From positions 1 to 64,000 of the forward strand of contig JAJPZJ010000059.1 in the NCBI GenBank assembly GCA_021204405.1: a stretch of 64,000 nt of DNA. The letters run 5' to 3'. A program made the translations under genes and the position numbers. The notes beneath the pieces were generated by a model. It was not told the DNA's origin and did not search any database. It was given only the letters and a program-made list of their open reading frames with translations. Every line of letters starts with the position of its first letter. Positions within the stretch are counted from its first letter, which is position 1. Shown piece after piece: positions 29,909 through 55,020 of this stretch. The stretch comes from Tannerellaceae bacterium (GTDB taxonomy: Bacteria; Bacteroidota; Bacteroidia; Bacteroidales; Tannerellaceae).

Positions 29909-29914
29909 CGCGCT

Positions 29915-31687: not shown

Positions 31688-31970
31688 ATCCCCGGCTTGA
31701 CCGCAGGGCTGTTAAATTCTCTCTCCTTAGTCCTGTAAGGACGATATATCCTAGCCCAGGGCACCAGCCCTGGGTAGTTAGGAATATAATGGTGTGGGAG
31801 TGCTGTAAGCACGACATAATAAAAATTTGATCTTAGGTATATTTTATGCCGTGCTTACAGCACTCAAAAAAGATCCATATCAACTACCCGGCACTGCGTA
31901 CCGGGCTAGGATAGGCCGTCCTTGCAGGACTAAGGGAGAGAATTTAACAGCCCTGCGGTCAAGCCGGGGA
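31688..31970. repeat. Long inverted-repeat element, family B copy 1
   Basis: About 125-bp arms face each other. The left arm starts ATCCCCGGCTTGACCGCAGG and the right arm ends with its complement at about 31970. Inside are nested palindromes: TAGTCCTGTAAGGACG, AGCCCAGGG...CCCTGGGT and GAGTGCTGTAAGCACGAC, matched on the other side by GTGCTTACAGCACTC, TACCCGGCACTGCGTACCGG and CCGTCCTTGCAGGACTA. No open frame of note lies inside. It looks like a non-autonomous mobile or REP-like element. A second copy is at 55183-55372. Confidence 0.7.
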
Positions 31971-32026
31971 AACTCATCATACTTTTCGGTCACTTCCGCT
32001 GTAAGTGTCCTTTATTTGATTACAAG

Positions 32027-33532: not shown

Positions 33533-33550
33533 ATTTAAAAGAAAACAAAT

Positions 33551-35247: not shown

Positions 35248-35948
35248 CTACCGTTTTCTTTTATAGCAATCTTTCATATTACATTGTGAGCAACCGTAAG
35301 GAACTCTTTGTATCTGCTCTCCTACTCCAACTATGGCGCTGACCGATTTAATGGGTAGCATCAGGCTGGAACCGGTAAGGGTGATACCGCAAAACCCGGC
35401 AGGCAGAAAAGAGAAAAGTGTATGCTGGTCGGATACCGGCCAGCTGCAATATCCCGGACTATACGGGTTGGTTAGTGAATAGCCAACCTGTTTGTTTTCT
35501 TCTTCCAGCAAGTTTAATGCATAGGCCATGATTGATTCGGTGAGTGCCGAACCGATTGCGTCGGCAACAAAAGATTCTACCAGGTCGCCACAGGCCTGTT
35601 TTTCTTTTAGCCAACCGTCTGCCCCGGCACCAACCGTGGCAACCAGGAGGATAAAGTAGCAGCTTTTTTTAGTTGGTTATGGATGATAGCTCCTACGTTA
35701 CATCTGCGGCCTTCCAGTACAAGGTACCGGTTATCCTCTAGTTTGCCGGTAAGATACCGGTAACCAAAGCAGCAACCTTTTAACTGCTTTACCTCCTCCA
35801 GTTGCCTGTTGATTACCTGCTGTACAAAAGGAGGAGTTTGTGCCGGTGTAGTTTCGAGGCAGGCATAGATTTCGTCTGTAAGGATTGCCGTGCCGGCAGG
35901 GTCAACCGTCACCCGGCGACAGGCCCGGCGGATGATAAAAGTATTCAT
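35248..35948 (-). pseudogene. B12-dependent methionine-synthase activation-domain-like protein, one frameshift
   Basis: The joined frame (~233 residues) resembles the stand-alone AdoMet-binding activation domain of MetH. It has RRACRRVTVDPAGTAILTDEIYACLE, EGRRCNVGAIIHNQL, then (after the slip near 35650) YFILLVATVGAGADGWLKEK, GDLVESFVADAIGSALTESIMAYALN, and the AdoMet/cobalamin-facing YSLTNPYSPGYCSWPVSDQHTLFSFLP. The end CGYGCSQC-like NMKDCYKRKR is Cys-rich. Such domains re-methylate oxidised cob(II)alamin using AdoMet and an electron. Last gene of the methyl-transfer module; its start overlaps the cupin stop by 4 nt. The slip lies near GCTGCTAC. Confidence 0.78.
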
Positions 35949-36353
35949 GTGGCCGGGTGTAATATAAGTTGATCCAATAATTGTTGTTGTTCGCCGGTAA
36001 GCGAATAATATTCACAATCCCGCAGGTGTGTTCCTGTATTTTCGAAGATAAAGACTATTGCCTCCTTTTCTAAGGCGATGTTATGCCACACGCCTTCAGG
36101 TATATTGTAGATAATTTCTTTTTCCATCGGGATAGTATCGAACCGGATGCCCTCTTTACCGAAAGTGGCTTCTATCAACAAGGCTTTGCCCGATAATAAT
36201 ATAAACACCTCGTCGGTAAGCAGATGTCTTTCTACCCGATCCATCCTGTCAAATGCCTGTCCGGGAATGTAATTGAGGATACCACCCCTGCCAGTTTTCC
36301 CGGATCAGGCAGGGGTGGTATCCTTCTCCTGTATAGTTATATTGTTCAATCAT
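35945..36353 (-). pseudogene. Small cupin protein of the methyl-transfer module, one frameshift
   Basis: ATG 36351-36353 overlaps the stop of the upstream methyltransferase (ATGA). The N-terminus MIEQYNYTGEGYHPCLIREN runs into a G4 run near 36285 (three G restores QGGILNYIPGQAFDRMDRVERH). The remainder is a single-domain cupin: VFILLSGKALLIEATFG, YNIPEGVWHNIALEKEAIVFIFENTGTHL, with a His in the second cupin motif. It could bind a metal and a small ligand such as a sugar; I cannot assign a reaction. Tight overlaps on both sides show it belongs to the corrinoid operon. Confidence 0.75.
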
Positions 36354-37363
36354 ACGTCGAGTCTTTTATTATAATTATGTAAAGCGTTATAAAACGCCTC
36401 TATATTTTCCATTGGAATATGCGGAGGGGTGTCGCAACCGGAAGAAAGGATAAAGTTGTTATATCCGGCGGTTGCCTCTAAGAGATCGGTTGTAGCTTTA
36501 TACATCTCTTCCGCCGTAGCCTGTTTAAAGAGAGCCACAGGGTCGAGGTTTCCCATAACCAGGCAATCGGCAGGGCAACCGTTGAGCGCCTCTTTCATAT
36601 CTATCTTATTCCCGAAATGGTAACCGGCCGCTCCGGTATCGACCATGGCAGCGGTACAATTGCCCGTATTCCCGCAATTATGCAGGAACACAAGGAAAGA
36701 GTCATCTTGCACAGCCTCTACGATCTGTTTAATATATACCGACGAGAACTCCCGGCAGGCATCGCCGGATAATAACCCGGCGGCAGGCTCGGCGATGAGA
36801 ACACCTTGTGTTCCCTCCTCTTTTAATGCTTTGCAGTAGGCGATAATAAGTCCGGTACATTTCGAAAGGAGCAGCCGGGAGTTTTCCGGGTCAATGTAAA
36901 TCGCCATCATCATTTCCGACATATCATACAACCGGCCGGCCAGTGAGAAAGAGCCGATGCAACCGGAGATAACAGGTTTATCTATCGTTTCGGCGGCCAG
37001 GCGATTGGCTAATAGGTATTCGGGAATACGGCCTGCATCCAGTCCGGGTACTTTTAACTGCTGAATGCCTGCTTCGTCTGAAAGCAACCGACCTACCACA
37101 GTGGGTACTTCATTTTCGGGGAAATGAACGGTTGCTCCGAAGGCTTCCGCTTCTACCGTCAGGTCCATAATTACCGAGCAGGCAGCCGATGGGTAGGTAT
37201 CACTCAGTATCTTAACGGCTTCGTAGTGGGTACGGCCATCTGTTACGGCATCTACTACCCGTTTGCCAATCATTTCAATGCCCGAATGGGTCATGATGGG
37301 GATGGTTACCCGTTGTTTATTTTCAATAATGGAGCGCATCCATTTTGTCATATTCATCTTCAT
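36350..37363 (-). CDS. MtaA/UroD-family corrinoid methyltransferase (1)
   Basis: The 337-residue protein belongs to the uroporphyrinogen-decarboxylase-fold methyltransferases (MtaA/CmuA type). The zinc-site pattern His-x-Cys...Cys is present: H228-N-C230 in FLHNCGNTG and C310 in LSSGCDTPPHIPMENIEAF. These bind and activate a thiol, methyl donor or acceptor for transfer to or from a corrinoid protein. It differs strongly from the second copy at 38023-39096, suggesting that one takes methyl from the substrate and the other passes it to an acceptor. Lies 11 bp downstream of the corrinoid protein gene. Intact. Confidence 0.85.
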   Translation of the reverse strand: MKMNMTKWMRSIIENKQRVTIPIMTHSGIEMIGKRVVDAVTDGRTHYEAVKILSDTYPSAACSVIMDLTVEAEAFGATVHFPENEVPTVVGRLLSDEAGIQQLKVPGLDAGRIPEYLLANRLAAETIDKPVISGCIGSFSLAGRLYDMSEMMMAIYIDPENSRLLLSKCTGLIIAYCKALKEEGTQGVLIAEPAAGLLSGDACREFSSVYIKQIVEAVQDDSFLVFLHNCGNTGNCTAAMVDTGAAGYHFGNKIDMKEALNGCPADCLVMGNLDPVALFKQATAEEMYKATTDLLEATAGYNNFILSSGCDTPPHIPMENIEAFYNALHNYNKRLDV

Positions 37364-37374
37364 AAGGGTATGTA

Positions 37375-38016
37375 TTAAAGTCCGATTAATTCTTTTGCTT
37401 TGGTTACGGCCGAGTTGGCGTTTGTACTGTATCCGTCGGCTCCGATCTGCCTGGCAAACTTTTCATTTACGGGGGCACCTCCTACCATTACCTTTACCTG
37501 GTTGCGTATTCCCTCCTGTTCCAGCGCCTCTATTACCTCCTGCATATAGGTCATGGTGGTGGTTAGCAGGGCCGACATACATAGGATATTGGGCTTCTCT
37601 TCTTTGATGGCAAGGATGAATTTCTCTGCCGGGATGTCTACACCGAGGTTTACCACATCAAAGCCGCAACCTTCCAGCATAGAGGCTACGAGGTTTTTGC
37701 CAATATCATGCAGGTCGCCTTTGACGGTACCGATCAGCACCTTTCCGATGGTGGCCGATTGATCGCCTTTCAGCAAAGGTTTGAGCAGTTCCAAAGCTCC
37801 TTTCATGGCACGTCCGGCCATCAGTAGCTCCGGAACAAATGCTTTTCCATCCTGGAAGCGTTGCCCCACTTCTTCCATCGCTTTGATCATATAATCGTTG
37901 ATGATCAGTTGGGGAGCTACTCCCTCATCAATCGCAACTTTTGTTACTTCTACGGCCGGCTCGAGTTTGCCGGCAACGATCGAGTTGTATAAAATATTCA
38001 GTTCAGCCATGTTCAT
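37375..38016 (-). CDS. Corrinoid (B12-binding) methyl-carrier protein
   Basis: The 213-residue protein has the two-domain layout of MtaC/MttC/MtmC carriers: a four-helix cap (residues ~1-85) and a Rossmann-like cobalamin domain. The diagnostic D101-L-H103-D-I-G106 supplies the His that replaces the lower axial ligand. SALLTTTM and VMVGGAPVN complete the nucleotide-loop pocket. It shuttles a methyl group between two methyltransferases, which here are encoded immediately on either side (6 and 11 bp). Intact, high confidence in family. Confidence 0.93.
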   Translation of the reverse strand: MNMAELNILYNSIVAGKLEPAVEVTKVAIDEGVAPQLIINDYMIKAMEEVGQRFQDGKAFVPELLMAGRAMKGALELLKPLLKGDQSATIGKVLIGTVKGDLHDIGKNLVASMLEGCGFDVVNLGVDIPAEKFILAIKEEKPNILCMSALLTTTMTYMQEVIEALEQEGIRNQVKVMVGGAPVNEKFARQIGADGYSTNANSAVTKAKELIGL

Positions 38017-38022
38017 TCCGGT

Positions 38023-39096
38023 TTAAGGGTTAGTACTATTGAGTTTCATCAATTGTTCGTACGAGCCGTATTTACGTCCGGCTTCAATAAAGGCTTTGAA
38101 GTTTTCCGGAGGGGTATTCCTACCCATGGCACAGCCCGAGCTCAGGAAGTGGCTTCGTCCTTTGGTGGCACAGATCAGTTGCTTTACGGCGGTGTCTATT
38201 TCCTGGGGTGTACCTAATACCAGCGGGTAGCTGGGGTCGATATTTCCCATCAGTATGGTCGACATGGATACGATATTGCGGGCTTTTTCCATGTCGAGTT
38301 GCCAGTCTATTTCGATAATACGTGCACCGGTGGTTCCCATATCTTCTATAATGCCGTTGGTGTTGCCGCAGATATGGAGGGAGAAAGGGATTCCGTAGGC
38401 CTGCACCTCCTCTATTAGTTTTTTCTCCGGTTCGAGGGCAAACTCACGGTACATACCGGGTGAGATCAGGTTGGGGCCGGCCAGTGCGTCACCTATGGAG
38501 GTGGCATGGGCGCCGGCGTCTTTCTGTGCTTTGGCAAACAGGGCACTTGCCCGGCGGCAATAGTCGAGTACGTCGGCTATCAGTTGTTTATCTTCGGTAA
38601 GCAGGTCCATCATAAACCGGGTGGTGCCCCGCAGCAGGCAGGCAATGCTGAAAGGGCCCTGGTCTGCCCGACCCATGATAAATACCCGGTCGCCAATCTC
38701 GTTTACGAGTGTAGCCGTTGCTTCGAGCCATTCCGACAGGCGTCCGGCTTTTAAGGGGTCGGGTAGTTCAAGGTCGTATACATCGTGCAGGTCTTTCAGT
38801 ACCAGTTCATCTTCATTGACGGTGGCCGGTTCGTCTTCCCTGAAAATCACTTTGGCTCCGATCGCTTCGGCTATGGAGGCATCGTCGAAGTCGATCACAC
38901 AGCCATCATATCCGTATTTCTCCTGCGAGATTACATGTGCCTGTGCCATCCGTTTACCATTATTATTGACCTGTCCGATTTTCATGCCGGCTGTTTCGAC
39001 AGCGTACATAAAGCTTTGGGGGACGATCGGTAAGGTATCGGGCATCTCTCCGTTCAAAACGGCTAAACACCTTTCGAGTGAAGTCATCTGTTTCAT
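38023..39096 (-). CDS. MtaA/UroD-family corrinoid methyltransferase (2)
   Basis: The 357-residue protein has the UroD/MtaA fold with H241-I-C243 in SLHICGNTNG and C322 in FLSSGCAMGRNTPPENFKAF, the expected zinc triad. Other family blocks are YGYDGCVIDFDDASIAEAIGA and DALAGPNLISPGMYREF. The closer resemblance to MtaA-like proteins suggests it could be either the methylcorrinoid:acceptor or the substrate:corrinoid enzyme; sequence alone does not decide. It is the first of the methyl-transfer genes, 11 bp after the transporter. Intact. Confidence 0.87.
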   Translation of the reverse strand: MKQMTSLERCLAVLNGEMPDTLPIVPQSFMYAVETAGMKIGQVNNNGKRMAQAHVISQEKYGYDGCVIDFDDASIAEAIGAKVIFREDEPATVNEDELVLKDLHDVYDLELPDPLKAGRLSEWLEATATLVNEIGDRVFIMGRADQGPFSIACLLRGTTRFMMDLLTEDKQLIADVLDYCRRASALFAKAQKDAGAHATSIGDALAGPNLISPGMYREFALEPEKKLIEEVQAYGIPFSLHICGNTNGIIEDMGTTGARIIEIDWQLDMEKARNIVSMSTILMGNIDPSYPLVLGTPQEIDTAVKQLICATKGRSHFLSSGCAMGRNTPPENFKAFIEAGRKYGSYEQLMKLNSTNP

Positions 39097-39107
39097 ATCG
39101 TTATCAT

Positions 39108-40257
39108 TTATTTTTTAAGTACATAAAAAGCTGTTATCAATATATATTGTAAGGTAAACAGTAAGATAAAGAGGCTTGTCCATTGGGTGGTTGCGTCGGC
39201 CAGTATACCCATTACGGGAGGGATCAGGGCGCCACCGGCTACCCCCATAATCATCAGGGCGGATATCTCGTTGGTAGATGAGGGGCCGGTACGTAAGGCG
39301 GCTCCGAAAACAATGGCAAATACGTTTGCACAGGTTAGTCCTACAAGGAAGAGGGCCACCATCCATACGGTTACATGGCCGGTTCCCATCAGTACGCCGA
39401 AAGCCAGTATGGCTACCACCAGTGTATTAATAAAAAAGGAACGGGGCGATAGTTTCAGTAGCAGGAAAGAGCCGGCAAACGTACCCAGGGTACGGGCTGC
39501 GTAATAGAGGCTACAGGCAAAACCGCCTTTATCCAGCGGCAGGGAATACCGTTCGGTTAGATATTTAGGTACTGCCGTCATCAATCCTATTTCAAAACCA
39601 ACGATCAGTACGATAATGGAGAAAAGGAGCAGCAGTTGTTTGTTTTTGAGTAAACTGATAATCTTCGCTCCGGTTTGTTGTTTGTCGTCATGCACCACCT
39701 CTTTTACGGGGGGTGAACTGCAACCAGAGAAATGATAAAAGGGTGGCAGCTGCATATACCGGGAAAACCAGTCTCCAGTTACCCCATGTTCCGGTTGCTA
39801 CTCCTGCAAGTATAGGCCCCAGGAAGGAGGAGATTGCTTTTATAAACTGGCCCAGGGTAAGCATACTGGTGACTTTCTTTTCGGCTACGATATCGGTTAG
39901 TAAGGGGTTGAGCGATACTTGTAAGATGGTATTGCCAATTCCAAGCAACGCAAAGGCTGTAAGAACAGCCGGGAATGAGTACCGGAACAGGGAAATAAGC
40001 ATGGCCAATGTAGTTATCCCGGCACTGAGCAGTACAGTTCGCTTCCTCCCGATTTTTCCCATCAGTATACCGGTAGGCAGTGAGCAGATGGCAAACCAAA
40101 GGAATACCAGCATGGGCAGGAGGTTGGCCAGTTTATCGTTCAGCCCGAAATCCTGTTTTACGTAGCTGGTGGCAATACCCACTACGTCGACGAATCCCAT
40201 AATAAAGAATCCGAAGAGGACAGGAAGGAGTTGGATGAGGTGTTTGTTGTTTTTTCA
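39108..40257 (-). pseudogene. MFS transporter, probable sugar importer, two frameshifts
   Basis: Reassembled it is a ~383-residue, 12-helix major facilitator. An A6 run just after ATG 40255-40257 (five A gives KNNKHLIQLLPVLFGFFIMGFVDVVG) and a C6 run near 39715 (five C joins FTP to VKEVVHDDKQQ) break the frame. MFS motifs include LPTGILMGKIGRKRTVLL between helices 2 and 3 and the second-half VPKYLTERYSLPLDKGGF. The FMGFVDVVG opening and length recall the FHS fucose/glucose symporter group common in PULs. It lies between the GH38 genes and the methyltransferases and would import the released monosaccharide or methyl sugar. Confidence 0.8.
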
Positions 40258-40651: not shown

Positions 40652-43526
40652 TTACTGCCTGAAATTCAATTTAAAGGTTTCTATTGCGTGATGTCCGACC
40701 GGAAGTGTAACAGAGGTTCCCTGTCCGGGTACCGTGCCCTCTTCATCTTCGATCAGGTTTGTTTTTATAATTTGCTGCACCGGTGCAGCAAAATCGAGTT
40801 TTAGCTGCCGGTTTTTACCGGCTATTTCCGACAGGCGTATGATTACGTCGTTGCTGTTGTCGGCACGCTTTACGGTGGTTACGTTTACCAGGGATTCGGA
40901 GGTGGTGAGGAAGCTTAGTTGCTCCGGGAGTTGGTTGCCCGTGGTGGTTGTTTTACGAACTGCATGCAATGGGTGGTTTGCCTCTACGCCATAGCGGTAG
41001 CCGTGTTACCAGCCGGCTTCATGGGCTAAGAGTGAGAATGAATAGTGGTGACGGCCTTTCTGTTCGTACCAGTTACCCAGTCCGTGGCAACTCTTATGCG
41101 AGGAGAGTAAGATGGCCTGTAACACAGGATAAGCGACTGCTTCACGGGAGGGGTCTACCCAGTCGGCTACTGCTACACAGGAGGATAAGGTAAGTCCGAA
41201 TCCTTCGCCGTTAGCCGAGATCAGGTTCTGGATCTCACGGGGGTTGATCTCGGCCGGTTGCTGCCGGTAGGTACCTCCCCAGGCCCATCCGCCGGGAACG
41301 GTTTTCATCTCGTCTTTTCCTACTTCTACCATGCCCATGGGTACTTCGTAGTTGATGGTAAAGCGATCCATCTCTAAAGGTAGCGCCATTCTAAACTGCC
41401 GGTTGTGGATGCCGTCGAAGTTGGTGAGTGTAATATCCATATCAATCTTTTTGATAGTATGGTATATCCTGATCTGCTGGATAACTTCGGTATGTTGCAT
41501 GTGTTGACGGTTTTCGAACGTAGTGAACAGGGCGCCCGATTCAACAATTTGCCAGTGTGCTACCTGGCTGCTGATAGCCAGCAAGTCGCCCGGCGTTGGT
41601 GGGGTAACCTGCGTGAACTCGCCGGCACCGTTACCCTGATAGCCTCCGTTGATGATATCGCCTCCTTTGAATTTGGTTGTATTCAAGATCTCCCGGTTTA
41701 ATGTTTTATCGAAAAGGTTTTTGATACCTCCGTCGCTCAGGGTGATTCGGTAGAATTCGTTTTCGTAATAGTTGGTATGTTGCTTTACAGAGGCAGGGGC
41801 TGCCTGTGGTGACTTTCCATTACTGAGGTAAAAGGTTTTATACCCCAGCGATGGAACTTCGTTGGCTATAAATTGCAACTCATATCCGTTCTCTCCTTTT
41901 ACAAGTTGTGAGGCGATCGGTTTGCCGGTAGGGTCTTTTACAAGGGTGTTACGGGCAGTTTTTTCGTCGAGTTGTATAGTTACCGGATTAGTGCGCTGCC
42001 AGTTGAGGTCGTTAAAGACTACCACTGCATTTTTACGGGTTTCGATCTTTCCGGCTAGTGCATGGAGTGCATTGCCGAGCAATTCTTTTCCTTTATCACG
42101 TGCAAACTCTAATGTGTCGCGGAAGATACGGTCGGTAATATCGCCGTTCTTACCTCCCTAGCCGTGGTCAGGATAGATGGAAGCCATCCAGGCTTCGTTG
42201 AATGCCGCTTTTGGATAATCTCCGGGAGTCTTGTCGACCAGGTAGTTGAACGTGGTAAACATCTCGGCAGCGGGAAGTAGTATACCTGCTTTGCGTTTGG
42301 CTTTGATGGCCTGGTAATGGGCCGGACCATGAATGTACAGCCATAGGTCGGGACGTTCGCCCGATACTTTTTCAAGGTTTGCCTGTGGTACGTTAACGGT
42401 GGCGAAATAGGCTTCGGCCGTGGAGTGTTTGATGGTAGGTAACGGCACGTCGGCAAGGGCAACGATCCGGTTCCATTCGTCTACCAGTGTTTTGTAATTG
42501 GCCGGTTCTTCTGCGTCGTTGCTGATTACTACGGCATAGTGGGGCGGGATATTGTGCAAGCGGAAGTATTCACTCCATAGTTGCGAACGGTGGTGGAGGC
42601 GGCCAAAGCCGGTGATGGCATCTTCTTCCAGAAACTTCCAGATCATTACAGCCCAACCATAGTTGCCGGGGGTAAAGGTGAATATTTTGGAGCCGTCGGG
42701 GCTATACCAGTCGTATAATTCCTCACGCATACGGCTGATAAAAAGGTTCTTTATGCCGCTCTTTGCCAATATCTGGGGCATCTGGAGAGTGCGTCCGGGT
42801 ACATCAATATTATAGGCAGTGCGGTCGTCGCAACCGGGAATATGCTCCCGAATCCATTTACGGCCGAAATAGGTTTACCGTACCAGTTGTTCGCTCGATT
42901 CTAACCCTTCGTAAGGTTGATTGTAGGTGGCACCCCAGGCAAAACGTCCCTCTTTATAGCGGCGTATTACCTCTTCTTTCCTGTTGGGGAATTCATCGAG
43001 AAACTCCCTCAGGTTGAGGGTTTGTTCCATACCGAACGCAAAGTCCTGGTCGGTGTCCATCATTTGCATGGCCGGGTTGATGATGTCGTATATCCGTTCG
43101 TGCCTGCACGAGTCGGGCGTGTTCATCCAGGCTATATCCTGATGGGAGGAAGAGATGATATGGATTGTTCCGTTCTGGAAGTAATCCCAGTTTGGCGGGA
43201 TCAGGGGGGGTATAGAGCTGTTCGGCAATCATTTTCTTTTGCTTGCCCGAGGCTATTTGCAAGAGCTTATCCTCTCCTATCAGTGGCAACCATACGGTAA
43301 GTTTATTGTCAGAGGCATTGGCTACCTCAACCGGCTTGCCGTCCAACCAGACCTGTGTGCCGGGAGGGTGGGTACCGGGCAGGTGTACGGTAGCTTGTAT
43401 CTGTAACTGTCCGTTCCGCTTTTCATACTGATAGGGCTTGCTATGCGTAACTTCCACCATAGCCGTTTGTCCATAGCCGCAGAGGCTTACCAGTAGGCAA
43501 AGGGTTGTGAATATAAATTGTTTCAT
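40652..43526 (-). pseudogene. GH38 alpha-mannosidase 1, one frameshift and three stops
   Basis: A signal peptide (KQFIFTTLCLLVSLCGYGQ) and an N-terminal beta domain precede the GH38 core. Zinc-binding SSSHQDIAWMN, the nucleophile region YNIDVPGRTLQMPQILAKSG and the zinc His in SIYPDHG*GG are all identifiable, as are C-terminal beta domains. Lesions are a C7 run near 43215, TAA at 42875 (LVR*TYFGRKW, Gln in the paralogues), TAG at 42158 (PDHG*GGKNG, Trp in both paralogues) and TAA at 41006 (AGW*HGYRYG). The intact protein (~957 residues) would cleave alpha-mannosides in the periplasm. Closest neighbours are GH38-2 (8 bp upstream) and the MFS gene. Confidence 0.88.
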
Positions 43527-43534: not shown

Positions 43535-46178
43535 TTATTTTGTTTGTAACTTAAATGTTTCAATGGCATGGTGTCCTACCGGATGGCTAAAGCCATGGGT
43601 TGACGAGTGGATCTTCCGTCCCTCTTCTTCGATAATATTGGTATGCTCTACGGTACCGATCTCTTTGAAGAGGTTGAAAGAGAGTTCTGTATTCTTGCCC
43701 TCTATGTCGTAGCAGTGTAGAATAACCGAATCGTCGTCGTCGCACTTTTTAAGGGTACTTACCACTATACCTTTACCTGTAGCCGAACCAAAGCCAAAAG
43801 TTTCAGGCAGGTAGCCGGTTTGTTCTTTCGGGTTGGTGATCACGACCTGCAAAGGTTGTTTGGTTTGTGTACCTGACCGGTATCCGTTTTTCCAGTCGCC
43901 TGCATGGCTGAATAGCGAAAAGATAAAACTATGGTTGCCGGGTTGCAGGTAATAATTACCCAACGAGTTACAGCTTTTGCGGCTGGCCAGCAGAATGGGT
44001 TGCAGTACCGGATAGTTTACCGGGTTATCGGTAGGGTCTATCCAATCGAATACGGCTACATCCGAACTGATGGTAATACAGGTCTTTCCATCCCAGGCGG
44101 CAAACCAGTCCTGTACTTCGCGTGGGTGTACGTCTTTACAGGAAGTGTCGTAAATCTGTTCGGATTTGGAAAATCCTGCTGCTCCGGCTATCTCGTCTTT
44201 GCCAACTTCTACAACACCCATGGGTACTTCATAGGCTACTTTCGCCTGCTTCATATTTACCGGGAAAGCCAGGCAGAACTCACGCCAGTTTTCACCGCTA
44301 AACTGATTCAGTTCTACTTCTATATCTATTCATTTGACTGTTTTATAGGCGATGATGCGGAGTACGCCGGTTGTTTCTTTCAGGGGTTGGATGGTTTGGA
44401 ATACATCACGCACCAGACCTGTTTCTACGCATTGCCAGTATTGGCGGTAATGGCTTAGTTTGTCGAAACCGCGCATATCAGGTTGTTGTATGTCGGTAAA
44501 TTCGCCGGCTCCGTTGCCTTCCGAGTGCATGGTAAAGAGTTCGGCAGCGGAGTATTTGCCGGTTTGGAAAACTTCTTTTTTCAATTGTTTACCGTACAGG
44601 CTTCGGATGCCTCCGTCGCCCAGTTCCATGCGGTAATAGCTGTTTTCGTATACCGGTAGCCACGATGGCATGGCGAAGGTTTTACGAGGGGTGCCCTCTA
44701 CCAGGTAATAGGTTTTGTAACCGAGGGCGGGAACATTTCCGGCAACGAATGTGATGGTTATTACTTCGTCGTGGTTACCTGCGTAGGAATGGTTGGAAGC
44801 CAGTTGGTAGTCTATTTCATTTCCCTTTTCATCTACCAGGCAGAAGCGGGTATGTTCGCGTCCTTCTACATCCAGTGTAAAGGTAACCGGATCGGTGCGT
44901 TCCCATGAGAGTGCATTAAATACTGTAATTGCATAAGGGTGTTTGGTATTGAAGTTGATTTTTTTAGCTATGGCCGTGGTGGCTCCCTGTACAATCTCTT
45001 TTCCCCTATCGCGGGCATATTCATATTTTTCACGGAAGAGGCGGTCGGTAATGTGTCCCTGGTTACCTCCCCAGCCATGGTCGGGGTAGATAGCCGATCC
45101 CATGCGTTGTTAAGCTGCTCAACCGGATAGTTACTGAAACTGTTTTCCAACAAGGAACGGATGGTCGAAAACTTTTCGGCGGCAGCTAACAGGCGGCTGG
45201 CGTCTCTTCCGGCCTTTACGGCCCGGCGGTGGGCAGGGCCGTGGATATAGAGCCATACGTTGGGACGCTCGCCGGTTAGTTTATCAAACCGGGTTTGCGG
45301 GTTGCGGCTTACAAAGTCGAGTGCCTGTGTGGCTGTTTCATACTGGATAAAGGGCAGGTGGCAGGTGTTATTACTGCGCACTTCGTTGTTCCACTCCTCA
45401 ATGTAATTGTCGTAGTTTAACGGGGTGGAAAAGTCGTATGAATAGAGATAGAGAAAGCCCGGTACAATATTCCGTTGTTTGAAATAGGGTTGCCATTCAC
45501 TCAACATAGTAGCCAATGTATCTGTTCGTGCAGCTTCTGTTTTTGCTGCGCGTAAGGGACGGCCAAAGCATTCATACTGCCCAGGTGTCCATCCGAGTAT
45601 ATAACTTCCGTCGGGACTATACCACTGGTAATAACCCAGCTGGTGACGGCTGAACATGTAATAGGGTATACCGGCTTTGGCCAGCATTTGCGGGTATTGT
45701 AAAGCCATACCCGGAACATCCTGGCTCCATGCGGTACGGAAGTCGCCTCCGGGCAGCAGCTTTTGCAGCCATTTGCGGCCAAAGTAGAGCTGGCAGATCA
45801 GGGCTTCGCCGTCGTACATAGAGAAGTAGGGTTGTTTGTAGGTTGCCCCCACTCCAACCGTCCTTCCAGGGTTCGTTGCAGGATCTCCTGATACCGTTCG
45901 GGGTGTCTTTCGAGGTATTCTTTGAGCGACAGGGCATCTTCTACCGAGAAGCAGAAGTCGGGACTTTCGGCCATACGTTTCAGGGCAGGTGTGAGCATCT
46001 GTTCGTTGCGGAACTGTATACATACTTCGGGGGCATCCATCCAGGCTATATCCTGGTGGCTGGAGTTGATTATATATAGTTTTCCTCTGTTGAACCAGGA
46101 ATGTTCCTGCGCATTTGTTACTACCGGCAGCACTAGCAAACCGGCAAGTAACAGGGTGTATTTCAGGATAGTATTCAT
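43535..46178 (-). pseudogene. GH38 alpha-mannosidase 2, two frameshifts and one stop
   Basis: The ~880-residue frame starts MNTILKYTLLLAGLLVLPVVTNAQ (signal peptide). GH38 blocks are NSSHQDIAWMDAPEVC, SQDVPGMALQYPQMLAKAG and IYPDHGWGGNQGHITDRLF. Breaks are a G run near 45850 (LEWGATYKQPYFSMYDG when restored), a G3 run near 45108 (four G gives AWGSAIYPDHG), and TGA at 44330-44332 (TVK*IDIEVEL), from TGG or CGA by one transition. The C-terminal part ends with VGHHAIETFKLQTK, shared with the paralogues. A mannosidase with likely different linkage preference from its neighbours. Confidence 0.88.
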
Positions 46179-46190: not shown

Positions 46191-48872
46191 TTAATAGATT
46201 AGCTTATATGTTTCAATTGCGTATTTACCCAGCACGATGTGTTCTACTTCGCCTATCTCCTCTTCTATCAGGTTAACGTGTACGATTTTGCGGGGTTTCC
46301 TAAAGAATTGCGGCATAACTATTTCCTGCCGGTCGCCTTGATTATAGAGGCGTATGATCAGGCTGTTATCGTCTTCGCATTTTTTAAAGGCTGATACCAC
46401 TACATTTTCGCTGGATAGGCTGATAAAGCTTTGTGTAAGCGGTAAGGTTGCATTCCGGTATGGTTGCGGATTATAAACGGCCTGTAGCCTGTCGTTTGCA
46501 GCCGTTCCGAATCGAACGCCCTCCACATCATCCGGCCGGTGAGAGGTAAGGGAGAAGTGGTAATAATGGTCTCCCGTCTGGTTATATTCATTACCCAGCC
46601 AGTGGCAGCTTTTGCGTGAGGCCAGGAGGATGGGTTGCAGGATCGTTTGCGCAACACCCGGTTGGGTGGGGTCTTTATAATCGGCTACGGCTACGGACGA
46701 ACTGAGTGTTACTCCGAACTGATCGCCCGAGCCTGCAATCCAATTGCCGATACCACGCGGACGTTGTTCTTTGTTTTCTACGTAATAGCGTTCACCTGCT
46801 GCTCCCGGCATTTCGTCTTTGCCTACTTCCAGTATGCCGTATGGTACTTCGTAGCGTACTGTTCCGTTGGTAAGGTTTAGTGGGAGCATCATGCGGAACT
46901 CGCGGTATAGTACACCTTCCCAGTTAAGGATGGCTATATCAAAGTCGATCTTTTTCAATTGGTGATATACCCGCATGGTTTGTTCAACTACTGCATGCCT
47001 GATTTTACTGCGATAGGTAAAGGAGGTGAATACCTCGCCTGTCTCCACTAGCTTCCATACTGGTGAATGGTTACTTATTCTATCAAAACCTTCCATCGTT
47101 GGTTGCTGTACGGCGTCGAACTCACCTGCGCCATTTCCTTCCGATTTCATGGTTATGATTTCGCCTCCCAGGAACCGGGATGTATCCAGCAGGCGGGTAT
47201 TCAACTCTTTATCTGTTATCTGGCTGATGCCGCCATTGGTTAGTTCGATGCGGTACCAGGGTGTTTCTATTTGTTTGCCGGGGGCGACTACACTGGTTTT
47301 GCCGGGGGCATTGGCCGGACTAAGGAAGTAGGTTTGGTAACCCATTGCCGGAACGGCGGTTGCCACAAAGTGAAGCGTAGCCGATTGGATGGTCTGGTCG
47401 TTATAGTAGGTAACATCGGTTAGCTGGCAGGGTAGGCGGCTTCCGTCGGCGGCTTTTACTGCGAGCGCCGAAGCATATCCCTCTTCCAGGCGTATGTCTA
47501 CGGTAACAGGGTCGTTACGTTGCCAGGATAGCGCATTGAATATAACTATAGGGCGGCCGGTTTGTTGTGCGGTGTTGACTTTCGAGGCCAGTGCTCCCAT
47601 TTCGGTTGCCAGCAGTGTGGTTGCTTCTGTTTCGGCATATTCGAACTTTTGCCGGAAGATGTTATCTGTTAGGATGCCTCCGTTGCCACCCCAACCGTGG
47701 TCGGGATAGCTTTTAGCTTCCCATGCGGCCTGCAATTGTTTTTCAGGATAGGCATTGAAGTTGCCTTCTGCCAGTGCCCGGAAAGAGGCTAGTTTTTCGG
47801 CAGCCGGAAGTAGTACATCACCTTTGCGGCTGGCAGTGAGTGCTCTTTCGTGGGATGGGCCGTGGATATACAGCCATACGTTAGGCCGTTCGCCTTTTAT
47901 GGTGGGCAACGATGCTGTGGAGCGGTTGAGTGTATGGAAAAACTCGTCGGCCATAGCGTAACGGAATGTAGGGAGACTTATTTTTGTTTTCTTACCTCCC
48001 GGTTTCTGTATATACCGGATACTATTCCATAAGTTCATAAAGGGTTCACAGTTTTCGACCGGTTGCTGATCCCATATAAATTCGTAGTTAAGCATAGCCG
48101 GCATAACGGTGGGTGCTTTGGCTACATTGTTGTATTGGGTATACCAGAGTACTGATTCTTTTGCCAGTTCGTTAATGGCTGTGTCATTCTCCATGCCCAG
48201 TACATTGTAGAAGTAGATATAATGTCCGGGGGTGTAGGTGCGTACTTTCGAGCCGTCAGGGGCTTCCCAGTTGAAGAGTCCGCATTCATGGCGGCTGATT
48301 ATCAGGTTGTCTATGCCTGCTTTCTGCATGATCTGTGGCATTTGCAGGGTTCTTCCCGGTACGTCTACGTTGAAATATGAGAGGGCTTTGTAACCGTCGA
48401 AATTCTTTTTCAGCCAGCAGTTACCCAGGTAAAACTGGCGGGCAAGTGATTCGCCCGAATACATCTCTTCGTAAGGTTGAATAAAGGTGCCACCTATACA
48501 AATCCGTCCCTCTTTCAGATGCTTGTTTATCACCTCTTTCTTTTCGGAGTGGCGATGGATATATTCCATCACGATTGAGGTCTGTTCAATATCCATTTTG
48601 AAGGATGGATCTTTCTGGAGCCTTTCGAGAAAAGGTGTGAGCCACATCGTATCGCGGTTAATGGTACAGACCTCAATATGGTCGAGCCATCTCAAATCCT
48701 GATGGGTGGTGGTGAAAAGGAATATTTCACCATTCTTCAACTGCGAATCTGAAAGTTTTTTTAATAAGGTGTACGTTTCGTCGTCGCATTGGTAGACTCC
48801 GTTGGCAAACTGTGCAGCTACCGGAAAGAGTCCGAGTAGTGATAGTAGTAGTGATAAGAGATACTTTTTCAT
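46191..48872 (-). CDS. GH38 alpha-mannosidase 3, intact
   Basis: The 893-residue protein is complete. It has a signal peptide (KKYLLSLLLSLLGLFPVAAQ), the zinc motif TTTHQDLRWLDHIEVC, the nucleophile region YFNVDVPGRTLQMPQIMQKAG, the zinc His in SYPDHGWGGNGGILTD, and beta domains to VLGKYAIETYKLIY. GH38 enzymes are retaining, zinc-dependent alpha-mannosidases. In PULs they act on N-glycan or other alpha-mannosides. The HQD is followed by LRW where the paralogues have IAW, a subfamily difference. It is first of three tandem GH38 genes, 12 bp before GH38-2, and is the only one without lesions. Confidence 0.93.
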   Translation of the reverse strand: MKKYLLSLLLSLLGLFPVAAQFANGVYQCDDETYTLLKKLSDSQLKNGEIFLFTTTHQDLRWLDHIEVCTINRDTMWLTPFLERLQKDPSFKMDIEQTSIVMEYIHRHSEKKEVINKHLKEGRICIGGTFIQPYEEMYSGESLARQFYLGNCWLKKNFDGYKALSYFNVDVPGRTLQMPQIMQKAGIDNLIISRHECGLFNWEAPDGSKVRTYTPGHYIYFYNVLGMENDTAINELAKESVLWYTQYNNVAKAPTVMPAMLNYEFIWDQQPVENCEPFMNLWNSIRYIQKPGGKKTKISLPTFRYAMADEFFHTLNRSTASLPTIKGERPNVWLYIHGPSHERALTASRKGDVLLPAAEKLASFRALAEGNFNAYPEKQLQAAWEAKSYPDHGWGGNGGILTDNIFRQKFEYAETEATTLLATEMGALASKVNTAQQTGRPIVIFNALSWQRNDPVTVDIRLEEGYASALAVKAADGSRLPCQLTDVTYYNDQTIQSATLHFVATAVPAMGYQTYFLSPANAPGKTSVVAPGKQIETPWYRIELTNGGISQITDKELNTRLLDTSRFLGGEIITMKSEGNGAGEFDAVQQPTMEGFDRISNHSPVWKLVETGEVFTSFTYRSKIRHAVVEQTMRVYHQLKKIDFDIAILNWEGVLYREFRMMLPLNLTNGTVRYEVPYGILEVGKDEMPGAAGERYYVENKEQRPRGIGNWIAGSGDQFGVTLSSSVAVADYKDPTQPGVAQTILQPILLASRKSCHWLGNEYNQTGDHYYHFSLTSHRPDDVEGVRFGTAANDRLQAVYNPQPYRNATLPLTQSFISLSSENVVVSAFKKCEDDNSLIIRLYNQGDRQEIVMPQFFRKPRKIVHVNLIEEEIGEVEHIVLGKYAIETYKLIY

Positions 48873-49065: not shown

Positions 49066-50622
49066 TTAAAATCTTCCGACCATGATCGATCTCCTGCTCC
49101 CTCCTCCTTGATACCCCGGGTTTTGTGTGAGCTCGGAGTTGGTTTGCCGGTCTCTTAACGGGATGGGGAACAGGAATTGGGTTTCTGTGAATTTGAAGGC
49201 TCCGTTTCCGTAAGGGAGTACGTAGCCTTCAAAGTCGGCAAAGCGATTGGTTTTCAGGTCGAGTACTTTACGGGTGCGGGCCATGTCAAACCAGGTCTGG
49301 TTTTCGAAGCAAAGCTCCCAGTAACGTTCTTTCCATACGGCTTCGCGGAAAGCATTCTGCGAGGGGAAGTCGGCAAGCGCGGAGGGTTCAAGGCCGGCAC
49401 GTTGACGTACTTTATTATAGCAATCGAGTGCCTGACTGTTGGGTAAACCGTCTGCTTCGTTCTGTGCTTCGGCATAAACCAGTAACAGGTCGGCGTAACG
49501 CAGGTTGGAGTAGTTTTGTGCTCCCTGTAATGTCTCCATCGCATCGTCGTCGAAAAACTTATAGATGTGTGCTGTAAAGGTTACGATCTCTTCCGGGTTG
49601 TTCCAGTTTGGATAATTGGTAAAGAAGAATCCTTTTTCCTTTACACGCTCGTCGTCCGGGTCGAATGTCCGGATAAAAGAAGAATCAGGATAAAAACAGC
49701 CATATTCGTTGGCGTAATTGGAAATGCCCGAATAGCGGGGCAACAGCCATTGGTGGATGGCATGATCCTGGATACTGGCTTCATACTGGGTCTGGAAGAT
49801 ATGTTCCACGGTGTTATCTTTTTTCCGGTCGCGCAGGTCGTGAATCGTTGGGAAAAGGCTATACCAGTTATTGTCTATTATCTTTTTTGCCTTTTCGGCT
49901 GCACGGGCGTACATCTCGGTTTTACCCAGCGGATAGCCGGCCATTGTAAAATAGACCTTGGCAAGCATGGATTTTACCGCACCTTTGGTGATCTTTCCGG
50001 ATTGAGATGTATTGGGGAGCGAGCTTTTCTCGGCTTCCAATAGGTCGGCTACAATCTGGTCGTAGACAGTTGCTTTATCCGTTCTCGGAATATTTACACC
50101 CTCTATCGATTCGGTTGGTTCGGTATGTAACGGAATATCTCCATACATCTGAACCAGCATAAAATAATAGTAGGCACGCAGGAAGTGCACTTCCCCCAGG
50201 TAATGAGAGAGGTCGGCAGCACTTACATTCGGTGTACCAGGTAATTTGGTAATTGCCAGGTTACAGTTTTCGATGCCTTCGTAAAAAGACTGCCACCAGT
50301 CCCAGGCATACAGGTTGTCTTCACTGGCATTGGCTTCCCTGAATTCTGCGCTATAGGCGGCCTGCCCTACGGATGTATTACACACACCGGTAGCAAACTC
50401 AAGCATCATAAAAGGGCTTTCGCCATAGGTAGCGACTCCATGGTAAGGCCTGCGGAGCGGATCACAACAGGCAGTAACCGCCTGTTGTGCATGTTCGGGT
50501 TTGGAGTAGAACGTTTCGGTTGTGAAGAAAGTCTTCGGGTCTACATCCAGGTAGGAGTTACAGCCGGTTGCCAGGCAGAAAGCAAGCGCTGAACAGATTA
50601 TTTGGAATACATTGTTTTTCAT
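49066..50622 (-). CDS. SusD-type surface glycan-binding lipoprotein of PUL 2
   Basis: ATG 50620-50622 gives the lipoprotein signal KNNVFQIICSALAFCLATGC. SusD features follow: DVDPKTFFTTETFYSKPEHAQQAV, LGEVHFLRAYYYFMLVQMYGDIPL, the RagB-like LLVYAEAQNEADGLPN, and WKERYWELCFENQTWFDMARTRK near the end. 518 residues, intact. It lies 22 bp downstream of its SusC partner and upstream of the three mannosidases, so it should bind an alpha-mannose-rich glycan at the cell surface. Confidence 0.92.
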   Translation of the reverse strand: MKNNVFQIICSALAFCLATGCNSYLDVDPKTFFTTETFYSKPEHAQQAVTACCDPLRRPYHGVATYGESPFMMLEFATGVCNTSVGQAAYSAEFREANASEDNLYAWDWWQSFYEGIENCNLAITKLPGTPNVSAADLSHYLGEVHFLRAYYYFMLVQMYGDIPLHTEPTESIEGVNIPRTDKATVYDQIVADLLEAEKSSLPNTSQSGKITKGAVKSMLAKVYFTMAGYPLGKTEMYARAAEKAKKIIDNNWYSLFPTIHDLRDRKKDNTVEHIFQTQYEASIQDHAIHQWLLPRYSGISNYANEYGCFYPDSSFIRTFDPDDERVKEKGFFFTNYPNWNNPEEIVTFTAHIYKFFDDDAMETLQGAQNYSNLRYADLLLVYAEAQNEADGLPNSQALDCYNKVRQRAGLEPSALADFPSQNAFREAVWKERYWELCFENQTWFDMARTRKVLDLKTNRFADFEGYVLPYGNGAFKFTETQFLFPIPLRDRQTNSELTQNPGYQGGGSRRSIMVGRF

Positions 50623-50644
50623 AATTCCGTATGATTTAAAGTTA

Positions 50645-53600
50645 TCAGAATACAACATTTACTCCCAGGTTGAAAGAATGTGCTTTCGGGTAGTTAAAGA
50701 ATTCTACACCTTGGGCAAAGGTATCGGTATAGTTGGTTGTTTCCGGATCGTAGCCTTTGTATTTGGTGATCAGGAAAAAGTTCTGTGCATTCACATAGAA
50801 ACGTACTCTATCCAGTTTAACAGTGTTGACGATACGATAGGGTAAGGTATATCCAAACACGATATTGCTACCACGGATAAATGAACCATCTTCGATATAA
50901 TGGCTGTTCAGTTTCAGTTCTGAGCCATCCCCCTGTGAGTCTACGCGTACACTGGCAATAGGGGTGTTCTGGTTTTGTGGTGTCCAGGCATTTAATACGG
51001 TGGTAAGCGAGTTCGACAGGGTCTGGCGGTCTTCTACGGTTGCGTAGTCGAGCCTCATAATATCGTTGCCGTAGCGGAAAGAGAGATCGAAAGAGAAGTC
51101 AAACTGTTTGTAACGCATGGTTGAGCTCAGGTTACCTTCAAACTTGGGTAAGCCATTCCCGATAATGGTACGGTCGTTCGAGTCTACTTTACCATCGTTA
51201 TTTAGATCTGCAAATTTCAGGTCGCCCGGTTTCTTCCCATAGCGGGCAGCTTCGTCGGCTTCGTGAGTTCCCCCAGGTTCCTAATCTAACATATCCTACG
51301 TACGAGTTTACAGCCTCTCCTACCCGCAGGATGTTTGTTATATCCAGGAAGTAAGGCCCCATGTAAATATCTTCGTTTTCTTCTCCGAGTTTCAGGATTT
51401 TATTACGGTTAGCAGAGATAATAAAGTCGATGCCCCACGAGAAATCTTTGGTGCGGATTGCATCGGCATTCACTGCCAGTTCCCAGCCCCGGTTACGGAG
51501 GTTGCCGATATTTTTCATTACGGTTGTGTAGCCCGATGTTGCTGTAACAGGAGCATCCAACAATAGGTCTTCTGTTTTCTTGGAATAATAGTCTACCGAA
51601 ACATTCAGGCGGCTGTTGAAGAAGCCCATATCAAGCCCAACGTCAAACTGTCTGGTCTTTTCCCATTTCAGGTCGGGATTCGGAATGCGGCCGCGGCCGA
51701 TACCGTTGTAGCGGTTACCGTCGAAAATTCCTGTATAGCTTCCGGTGGCAGAGATAGAGCGGAAGTTAGGGATTGCATCATTACCGGTTAATCCGTAACT
51801 GGCGCGTAGCTTCATATTGGACAGAAAGGTAAGTGGTTTCATAAACGACTCTTCGGTAATACGCCACGCCAGTGCAGCCGATGGGAACGTAGCATACCGG
51901 TTGTTCTTACCAAAGCGCGACGATCCGTCGATACGGGTAGTAAGGGTTGCCAGATACCGGTTATTATAGGCATAGTTGACACGGGCAAAGTAAGAGTTCA
52001 TACGCCATTCATCCCAGTCGGATGATCCGGGGCGCGGGTTACTTCCGGCTCCGAGGTTGTGGTATTGATAAAAGTCGTCGGAAAATCCATGCGCTTCGGC
52101 CACTACCTTTTCCCAGTTGTTTTTGTTCCAGCTGGCTCCTGCCATTACGTTCAGGCTGTGTATTTCATTAAATACATTGGTGTAGGTAAGGTAGTTTTCA
52201 TTTTGCAGGTAAATGGTTCGTTCGGTAGTGATCTGTGCAACTCCCTGTTGGTCTTTTGCAATTGCACTCAATTCGCGGCCATTATACACATCATCTTTCA
52301 GCCAGATAAGTTGTGCGGAAAAAGAAGATTTTAATTCGAGACCTTTAGCCAACAGCAGGGTGATATTAAAATCGCCGAGCCCTTTGGTAGTAGTGTTCTT
52401 CCGGATCATATTCTTCAAAAGATTTACCGGGTTTTCACCGTTTTCGGTACCTGCATGTTGTGCATTGGTTCCCCAGCTTCTGTCCGGATTGGTTACCGGG
52501 ATAATAGGCAGGGCTTCCAATAACATACGGGTAGAATTCAATCCGCCCGGCCCTTCGGATGGCCCTTGTCTTTCGGTATGCAAAACGGCCAGGTTCATAT
52601 CTGTTTTGAGCCAGCTATTTACCGTATACGAATTGGTTAGTTTAGCCGTATATTTAGTATAATAGGATTCAAGCAAAATACCCTGGTTATTATCGTAACC
52701 TAGTGATAAAGAAGAGGCCTGTTTGTCGGTACCTCCGGCAATAGACAGCGAATGATTGGTAGATACTGCTGTACGGGTAGCCTCTTTCTGCCAGTCGGTA
52801 TCGTATTTGGGTGTACCGTCGGCATTGAAAAGGTCGGGTTCAAGGGTGGCATAGTCGGGCATTTGGCGCCCTTCCACATAGCCCCATACCTGCCGTTCCA
52901 TTTCCATATACTGGGCAGAGTTTAATACATCTATTTTACGGTCGGACGGCAGGTAACCAATACCCACGCTTCCGTTGTAATTTACTTTGGTGGCTCCGGC
53001 TTTCCCTTTTTTAGTGGTTACAAGGATCACGCCGTTGGCTCCACGTGCTCCGTAGATTGCTGTAGAGGAGGCATCTTTCAGCACGTCTACCGATTCGATA
53101 TCAGCGGTGTTGAGCATTCCGAAGTCAACCCCGATCACACCGTCTACTACAAATAGCGGGTCGTTGGTTGCATTGATAGAGTTATATCCGCGGATATTTA
53201 CTTTGAATATACCTCCGGGCAGCCCGCTATTATTATTGATATTGAAACCGGCTACTTTTCCCTGTAGTGCACCCAATGGGTTGGCCGAGGTTTTAGCCAG
53301 GATCTTTTCACTGGATATATTGGCTACAGAGCCTGTGAGGTCTGACTTCTTAATGGAACCGTACCCGATTACCACTACTTCATCCAGTACCTGTAGGTAT
53401 TCTCTCATGGTGATATGCATGAAAGAGTTGGTAGCCTAGTATTCCTGTTGCTGGTATCCTATGTATGAGAATACCAGTACGGCATTCCCGTTTGTTACTC
53501 TCAAGCTGAAATTACCATCGATATCAGTAATTGTACCGATTGTTGTTCCTTTCACCCCGGCATTTACTCCGATCAACGGATTATCCTGTTCGTCGACCAC

Positions 53601-54015: not shown

Positions 54016-55020
54016 CTAATTCAATTCTAATTGGGTTGACAAAACTACCTGGGTTTTACCGGTAACGGTATCGGGTTTTTCTAATTCACGCAAAAGGATA
54101 TGAACAGCCTGTCTTCCTATCTCCTTAATCGGTTGATGGGCTATATTCATATTAGGAGCCAATATCTCAAAACTTGGCATGGTATGGAAACATGCCAGGC
54201 TTATTTTATGCTGTATATCAATCTTATTCTTATAGAAATAGCGTAGGGCTTCCATACCCAGGTAGTGGGTGGTAAAGTAGAAGCCGTCTAAATCGGGCAC
54301 TTCTTCAAAAAGACGGTCGAATATGGTTATCAGGTCTTCTTCGTATGCGTCTCTTTTTACTTCCCGGTATAACGCCGGATCATAGGGCAAACCGGCATCG
54401 ACGAGTGCGGCTTTATATCCATCGTGCCGCAGGTTCATCACTAACAGATGGGTGTCGGTAGTAATAAAGGCGATTTTTTTCTTCCCTTGCCCTATTAATG
54501 AGCGTACCAGTTGATAACTACCTTCTTTATTGTCAACAATTACATAGTTGGTATTGAGCTCGGGAAAGAAACGGTCGATAAGTACAAAAGGGATCTTCTC
54601 TTCCATCAGTAATTCCAACTCTTTCCTGGAGTGTTTGGTGGGTGCAATGATCAGTCCGTCTACTCCTTTTGATTTGAGCATACGGATAATTTTGCTTTCC
54701 CGCTTGGAGTCGGCCTCCGAACTACAGAAAGTGAGTGAATAATTATGTTTATCGGCTTCGAGTTCTATCTCGCGGGCAATTTGAGCATAAAATTCATCGC
54801 CAATGGAGGGAATGACTAATCCTAACGTATGGCTACTTCCACTGATCAGGCTTTTGGCTAACAGGTTGGGATGGTAATTTACTTTTCGGGCATAGGCCAG
54901 AACCTTCTCCTGCGTGGCCATACTGATCTTACGCTCATCTCCCTTTCCTGACAGTACCCACGACACGGTGGTAGTAGATATATTAAGGGCATTTGCAATA
55001 TCTTTGAGAGATGCGTTCAT
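54016..55020 (-). CDS. LacI-family transcriptional regulator of PUL 2
   Basis: The 334-residue protein has the LacI HTH and hinge (SLKDIANALNISTTTVSWVLSGKGDERKISMATQEKVLAYARKVNYHPNLLAKSL, split here across helix-turn-helix and hinge helix). A periplasmic-binding-protein-like effector domain follows (TLGLVIPSIGDEFYAQIAREIE, GVDGLIIAPTKHS, IPFVLIDRFF, KKIAFITT). It is directly upstream of the SusC gene on the same strand. Three similar CG-centred palindromes lie around it, one just upstream of its own start, which suggests autoregulation and control of the operon. The effector is presumably a sugar released by the PUL. Intact. Confidence 0.92.
   Translation of the reverse strand: MNASLKDIANALNISTTTVSWVLSGKGDERKISMATQEKVLAYARKVNYHPNLLAKSLISGSSHTLGLVIPSIGDEFYAQIAREIELEADKHNYSLTFCSSEADSKRESKIIRMLKSKGVDGLIIAPTKHSRKELELLMEEKIPFVLIDRFFPELNTNYVIVDNKEGSYQLVRSLIGQGKKKIAFITTDTHLLVMNLRHDGYKAALVDAGLPYDPALYREVKRDAYEEDLITIFDRLFEEVPDLDGFYFTTHYLGMEALRYFYKNKIDIQHKISLACFHTMPSFEILAPNMNIAHQPIKEIGRQAVHILLRELEKPDTVTGKTQVVLSTQLELN

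Follow-up and report, generated by a model that had tools for sequence, protein, structure and literature searches.

A corrinoid methyl-transfer cassette in a SusCD/GH38 locus of a Tannerellaceae bacterium and its putative role in demethylation of glycan sugars

Genes of the cassette

We analyzed a stretch of 64,000 nucleotides from Tannerellaceae bacterium (GenBank assembly GCA_021204405.1, contig JAJPZJ010000059.1, positions 1 to 64,000 of the forward strand; below, the window), with emphasis on a minus-strand cassette at 35248-39096 that encodes a corrinoid carrier protein, two UroD-family methyltransferases, a cupin and an activation protein. The first methyltransferase, MT1 (39096-38023, 357 amino acids (aa); PF01208 URO-D, 6e-67), is followed by the carrier (38016-37375), which combines a cap domain (PF02607) with a B12-binding domain (PF02310), and by the second methyltransferase, MT2 (37363-36350, 337 aa; PF01208 URO-D, 9e-54). 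Downstream lie a WbuC-like cupin (36353-35945; TIGR04366, 2.6e-6, below the cut-off) and a MetH-type S-adenosylmethionine (AdoMet) activation protein (35948-35248), both frameshifted, the latter near 35,620. The cupin start at 36353 overlaps the MT2 stop, and MT2, the cupin and the activation protein are joined by start/stop overlaps, an arrangement that speaks for co-translation of these genes. A preliminary description of this DNA had placed the genes and both zinc triads exactly, as judged by coordinates, PF01208 matches and alignment to MtaA. It had also recognized the cupin and the activation protein, and both are present; however, each is split by a frameshift, and the open reading frame (ORF) 35529-35248 is only the C-terminal part of the activation protein.

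Both methyltransferases belong to the UroD superfamily: each has a URO-D domain and a triad (H241/C243/C322 in MT1, H228/C230/C310 in MT2) that aligns onto the zinc ligands of M. mazei MtaA. The His-Cys-Cys (HCC) triad is kept in 52 of 52 MT2 sequences and in five of five MT1 sequences of the window type. AlphaFold (AF2) models of MT1 and MT2 have pLDDT values of 89 and 92, respectively, and the best PDB fold of both is MtaA (4ay7, TM 0.85, for MT1; TM 0.86 for MT2; range 0.85-0.87), followed by uroporphyrinogen decarboxylases, with MetE far behind. The carrier contains the cobalamin motif DLHDIG at residue 101 and GGAP at residue 179; its closest solved relatives are 1y80 and the trimethylamine corrinoid protein 7xcn, and its top NCBIfam match is MtgC_2. 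For the cupin of a relative locus (L034), the solved relative is 3d0j.

Relatives and partner enzymes

A search of species genomes yielded 51 MT2 loci, mostly 57-68% identical, 50 under the label Bacteroidota and one under Clostridia; in a sample of the order with about one genome per genus, MT2 was found in 16 of 295 genomes. The cassette labelled "Clostridia bacterium" (L078) groups with that of Bacteroides oleiciplenus, possibly as a result of mis-binning or transfer. MT2 and the activation protein recur across the 51 loci and adjoin each other in nearly all of them, whereas the partner methyltransferase varies. The carrier is adjacent or encoded elsewhere: all five genomes checked for want of an adjacent carrier have a dedicated one at another place, and in four of these it forms part of a protein of 604-613 aa that also contains the partner methyltransferase. 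In four loci (L040, L041, L042 and L053), MT2 directly follows a 426 aa ORF that by eye resembles glyA (serine hydroxymethyltransferase); the activation protein accompanies MT2 in three of these, and in the checked genomes of this type the carrier and the partner enzyme lie elsewhere.

In the tree, 100% support (100/99 for MT1 and 100/100 for MT2) was obtained for four single clades, namely MT2, MT1 of the window type and two of the other partner groups; one more partner group is diverse, and MT1 and MT2 do not form a sister pair. With an identity of 32% between them and separate clades of full support, MT1 and MT2 represent old, separate lineages; recent duplication of one enzyme, which would have refuted the preliminary description, is ruled out, and the two enzymes are indeed as dissimilar as the preliminary description had held. 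It had also envisaged that trees might join one of the copies to MtaA-type acceptor enzymes. MT2 did not join MtaA; however, the division into a substrate-side and a thiol-side enzyme is backed by the modularity of the loci.

Outside the window type of MT1, the partners have the ligand sets HCH, HDH, HDM/HDV or HDG. MT1 of the window type was found in the window and in four other loci (L034, L085, L086 and L087), of which L086 and L087 have it beside a glycoside hydrolase of family 38 (GH38), with MT2 and the activation protein not nearby. The cupin accompanies only this type of MT1 (four of five loci versus 0 of 53 others), and this co-occurrence marks MT1 and the cupin as a substrate module. 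The preliminary description had suggested that the cupin could bind or sense the substrate; from its co-occurrence, the cupin can be assigned to that module.

The partner type also follows the sugar enzymes. All five loci with MT1 of the window type also have alpha-mannosidases of GH38 and/or GH92, compared to one of 53 others. In a single case (L059), another partner type adjoins GH127 and GH115; GH115 is a family of enzymes that liberate (4-O-methyl)glucuronate. An SSF sodium symporter accompanies the HxD-type partner in 18 of 19 loci (0 of 39 others), GH31 does so in 16 of 19 (0 of 39) and GH141 in 13 of 19 (0 of 39); these pairings span at least five families. The GH141 of these loci matches BT_1002 over ~595 residues (E 5e-178); BT1002 is the founding member of GH141 and frees 2-O-methyl-D-xylose-alpha-1,3-L-fucose from rhamnogalacturonan II (PMC10154630). 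It should be noted that the loci in these counts are mutually related and that P values overstate the associations; the pairings are nevertheless specific. The proposed division of labor between a substrate-side and an acceptor-side enzyme is therefore plausible, since MT1 tracks alpha-mannosidases, whereas MT2 tracks the carrier and the activation protein and swaps partners.

The surrounding polysaccharide-utilisation locus

The cassette had been described as self-contained, which is incorrect: it closes a SusCD/GH38 polysaccharide-utilisation locus of ~20 kb on the minus strand, in which SusC, SusD, glycoside hydrolases and a regulator lie on one strand. A LacI-family gene (54016..55020; Pfam LacI and Peripla_BP) is the probable regulator of the locus, and it is also the first gene in the relative loci L034, L085 and L086. 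It is followed by a TonB-dependent receptor of the SusC type whose gene is likely to be incomplete or frameshifted (51198..53420; Pfam Plug and TonB barrel), by SusD (49066..50658; Pfam SusD_RagB) and by an intact GH38 alpha-mannosidase of 893 aa (46191..48872; Pfam Glyco_hydro_38N/C/C2). Two more GH38 alpha-mannosidases, each with several frameshifts, were recognized from frame pieces: the second at 43535..46178 (Glyco_hydro38C2 in 43535-44254) and the third at 40652..43526, whose pieces cluster with the GH38 of L034 (56% identity over 864 columns). Next to the cassette lies a frameshifted sugar-type transporter of the major facilitator superfamily (MFS; GluP/FucP-like; 39108..40200; PF07690, with TIGR01272 on the second piece), an intact relative of which is found at L034:3977-5110.

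Reactivation

The activation protein matches PF02965 through its C-terminal part with 27.6 bits (gathering cut-off, 25 bits) and contains a motif of the SPGY type, YSPGYC, as expected for a MetH-type activation protein. The SPGYC is in line with that of T. maritima TM0269, and intact relatives align to the TM0269 structure 1j6r. PGYC is found in 40 of 44 aligned activation proteins, and a C-terminal CxxC-x4/5-C in all 43 apart from TM0269 (CxxC-x5-C at 35248-35300 in the window); the compared TM0269 segment stops earlier. A RACo_C_ter match was found nowhere in the window genome, and RamA-type reactivation was thus rejected for this genome; RACo lies beside three relatives (L052, L069 and L078). 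From its sequence, reactivation in the window cassette looks AdoMet-type, in agreement with the preliminary description, which had put forward a MetH-like rather than a RamA/RACE mechanism. In L034 (8274-9854, plus strand) the activation protein is fused to a CobW-type G3E GTPase; across L034 and L085 (7827-9401, plus strand) it is either fused to such a GTPase or placed right after it. This GTPase is possibly a metal or corrinoid chaperone.

The methyl acceptor and methionine synthesis

Because a His-Cys-Cys zinc site points to a sulfur ligand (PMC10418091), the best-fitting role of MT2 would be methyl transfer between the carrier and a thiol, of which homocysteine would be the most straightforward. 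MT2 may otherwise use sulfide or another thiol as a sink, or serve a second S-methyl donor. Evidence on homocysteine comes from two Prevotella genomes (G133 and G134), in which a single protein of 1001-1037 aa (L095:3379-6492, 1037 aa; L096:4007-7012, 1001 aa; plus strand) consists of an HxD-type partner, a MetH-type homocysteine methyltransferase that retains the GGCC motif, and a corrinoid domain, with no pterin domain. The fusion gene of G134 sits between GH31 and a symporter. In both genomes MetA is present, and canonical (pterin-type) MetH, MetE and MetF were not found; the fusion is the only visible route there from homocysteine to methionine. Since the fusion occurs together with MetA and without the canonical enzymes, these sequences would name homocysteine as a methyl acceptor in those Prevotella.

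A broader pattern was found among genomes with MT2: MetF is absent in 11 of 11 without canonical MetH and present in 12 of 12 with it. The 11 genomes (G133, G134, G143, G161, G147-G152 and G162), all with the set of MT2, carrier and activation protein, represent three lineages, i.e., two Prevotella, two Alistipes and seven rumen-type Bacteroidales; they are mostly draft metagenome genomes, so that single absences are weak, whereas the overall pattern is not. A homocysteine methyltransferase domain is found in 10 of the 11 and stands alone in six of the seven rumen-type genomes. The Alistipes genomes have 860 aa remnants of MetH (L097:6368-8950 and L098:5072-7657, minus strand), with an intact homocysteine domain, a degenerate pterin domain and a B12 domain without DxHxxG, and the stand-alone carrier may serve these remnants in trans.

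Other acceptors were considered. Folate is disfavored as the acceptor of MT2, which is kept in the 11 genomes without MetF, nine of which have no pterin-binding match beyond one protein of dihydropteroate-synthase size. For coenzyme M (CoM), both enzymes score far below the curated NCBIfam cut-offs for MtaA and MtbA (400 and 600 bits; MT1, 151 and 141 bits; MT2, 103 and 112 bits), and CoM synthesis genes were not searched for. This bacterium is not expected to have CoM, which is an unlikely acceptor in the window genome.

Proposed pathway and alternatives

We lean, by a slight degree, toward corrinoid demethylation of methylated glycan sugars as the function of the cassette, with MT1 on the substrate side, MT2 on the thiol side and AdoMet-type reactivation; the reactions, the methylated-mannose substrate, the acceptor and direction of MT2, and the electron donor are predicted from sequence and context. 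SusC/SusD and the GH38 mannosidases would import and trim a methyl-bearing, mannose-containing glycan, and uptake of the methylated sugar into the cytoplasm would fall to the MFS transporter. MT1 would then load the sugar methyl onto the carrier, with its corrinoid as Co(I), and release the sugar for catabolism. MT2, with its thiolate-suited His-Cys-Cys zinc, would pass the methyl from methyl-Co(III) to homocysteine, or to sulfide or another thiol sink, and regenerate Co(I). Carrier in which Co(I) has become oxidised to Co(II) would be restored through reductive methylation with AdoMet, the task of the stand-alone MetH-type activation protein. The polymannose of E. coli O8 is methylated and free of phosphorylation (PMC3482155); as a source of methyl-mannose, it is a guess.

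Several observations weigh against this pathway. The His-Cys-Cys set of the window MT1 is ascribed to S-methyltransferases: according to the ligand rule of Kountz & Balskus, at least one zinc Cys is replaced in O-demethylating UroD enzymes (PMC10418091), which is the case in the partners of other loci (HCH, HDH, HDM, HDG) and not in the window MT1, so that this enzyme may act on a thioether instead of an O-methyl sugar. MT2 is retained in Prevotella that already have a homocysteine methyltransferase domain; because the fusion already includes that domain, MT2 as a homocysteine enzyme is weakened, not rejected, and MT2 may be a different enzyme, even a second donor-side one. Bacteroidales are rich in sugar-degrading genes; hence, mere proximity is weak and only the specific pairings count, and the rumen loci lie amid housekeeping rather than sugar genes. 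The Arg that precedes SPGY in most activation proteins is replaced by Asn/Pro in the window protein. Several window genes are frameshifted.

The ligand argument leads to an alternative in which both enzymes are of the S-type, MT1 demethylating a methylthio-sugar or a small thioether and MT2 passing the methyl to homocysteine, in a sulfur/selenium salvage like that of type 1 mlp clusters. Both triads fall in the S-type set (PMC10418091), and both models are nearest to MtaA, an S-methyltransferase. Nevertheless, we consider this unlikely, given that a SusCD/GH38 locus, instead of sulfur or selenium genes, adjoins the cassette, that the same set of MT2, carrier and activation protein is paired elsewhere with sugar enzymes and partners of O-type ligands, and that the Ram/RACE of type 1 mlp clusters has no counterpart in the window genome. 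The conserved set could otherwise be mainly a folate-independent methionine synthase, in which the carrier would deliver methyl groups of any donor to homocysteine, with sugar demethylation as one donor among several. Three observations are consistent with this: two Prevotella have the fusion; MetF and canonical MetH have been lost in three lineages, and 10 of the 11 genomes concerned have a homocysteine methyltransferase domain; and the Alistipes remnant has lost the cobalamin His motif and kept the homocysteine domain. However, MetH, MetF and MetA are intact in the window genome, where methionine supply is not an obvious reason for the cassette, and the rumen and Alistipes genomes have no MetA and hence would recycle homocysteine only. 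As an account of the set as a whole, we find it quite improbable.

We give similarly little credence to a donor-side MT2 that acts on an S-methyl compound, with MetH or another homocysteine methyltransferase as the real acceptor enzyme in trans. Such a role would explain why MT2 is retained by genomes in which a homocysteine methyltransferase is already part of the carrier protein; yet MT2 is constant where donor-side enzymes vary, and no other carrier-specific acceptor was seen near the cassette in genomes with MetH. Finally, the frameshifts (in the cupin, the activation protein, the MFS gene and two GH38 genes) could be genuine signs of a degenerate locus with a decaying cassette. Against this, MT1, the carrier and MT2 have uninterrupted reading frames with their motifs retained, and in the relative L034 none of MT1, the carrier, MT2, the cupin, the MFS transporter and the activation protein is broken. 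Because hemE of this genome is interrupted in a like manner, the frameshifts are likeliest to be assembly indels, although this is inferred rather than proved, and decay is very unlikely.

Returning to sugar demethylation, the relatives suggest a wider system, of which the window cassette would be one instance: a modular pathway of Bacteroidales that is linked to methylated sugars and, among certain relatives, to folate-independent methionine synthesis as well. Tentatively, and with more doubt than confidence, we propose an anaerobic pathway in which interchangeable UroD enzymes remove methyl groups from 2-O-methyl-xylose, 4-O-methyl-glucuronate and methyl-mannose of plant, algal or microbial origin and the methyl is passed to homocysteine without folate, replacing methionine synthase in some Prevotella. 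If so, methyl groups of dietary sugars would end up in methionine in some Prevotella, gut Bacteroidales would have an additional use for vitamin B12, and diet-derived methyl would reach methionine/AdoMet independently of folate. The handling of O-methylated sugars by anaerobic gut bacteria is an acknowledged gap, in that the demethylation of such sugars in anaerobes "has not been elucidated yet" (PMC12316285), and our literature search, with most subscription journals outside its reach, did not find corrinoid-dependent sugar demethylation in Bacteroides. The presence of the loci in cultured Phocaeicola vulgatus ATCC 8482, Bacteroides salyersiae, B. oleiciplenus and Parabacteroides goldsteinii makes the question directly testable.

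Comparison with known systems

A carrier shared by demethylation and methionine synthesis has precedent in the MtgBCDE system (PMC12478193) of glycine-betaine demethylation and split methionine synthase of R. pomeroyi and P. inhibens (PMC12478193, PMC5764234), in which a stand-alone MtgC/MtbC-like corrinoid protein can connect a demethylating methyltransferase to a homocysteine methyltransferase (PF02574) that is separate from it. The cassette differs in its UroD-type rather than MttB-type donor enzyme, its PF02965 rather than RamA-like activation protein, the lack of a pterin-binding partner and the sugar-degradation context. The PF02574 subunit is not in the window cassette, the window genome having an ordinary MetH; in the Prevotella relatives, which have no MetF, it is fused to the partner and the carrier.

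The ether-cleaving O-demethylases of acetogens (MT I, corrinoid protein, MT II and activating enzyme; PMC12915777) resemble the cassette in combining a substrate methyltransferase, a small corrinoid protein and a reactivase, and in that swapping of the first enzyme sets the substrate range. In contrast to them, the cassette has neither a folate MT II nor an ATP-dependent Fe-S activating enzyme, and its predicted substrates and acceptor are sugars and a thiol, instead of aromatic methyl ethers as substrates. The only Pterin_bind matches in the window genome are two, one within MetH and the other in a 281 aa ORF of dihydropteroate-synthase size, and RACo is missing from it. Type 1 mlp clusters (PMC10418091) share several His-Cys-Cys UroD methyltransferases and a corrinoid protein, with no folate methyltransferase; the window likewise has two UroD genes and a carrier, but its genome has no RACo_C_ter match. 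These clusters have Ram/RACE and sulfur/selenium genes and occur mostly in Firmicutes, compared to the PF02965 protein, sugar genes and Bacteroidales host of the cassette. The methylcobalamin:CoM methyltransferases MtaA/MtbA share the UroD fold and the zinc triad and include the nearest solved structure for MT1 and MT2, but they are only 21-26% identical to these enzymes, far under the family cut-offs. Algal sugar methyl removal within a polysaccharide locus is also known from aerobic marine bacteria, in which a P450 oxidatively demethylates 6-O-methyl-galactose (PMC12316285); the P450 requires oxygen, whereas the proposed cassette is anaerobic and corrinoid-based.

Neighboring features

The plus-strand genes at 26786-34975 are a separate locus, directed away from the cassette, with two sulfatases (32348-33532 and 33632-34975) and, by eye, probable pieces of SusC/SusD. 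Two matches to the Acido-Lenti-1 RNA above the Rfam gathering score were found in the window, at 31729-31774 on the minus strand and 55322-55366 on the plus strand.

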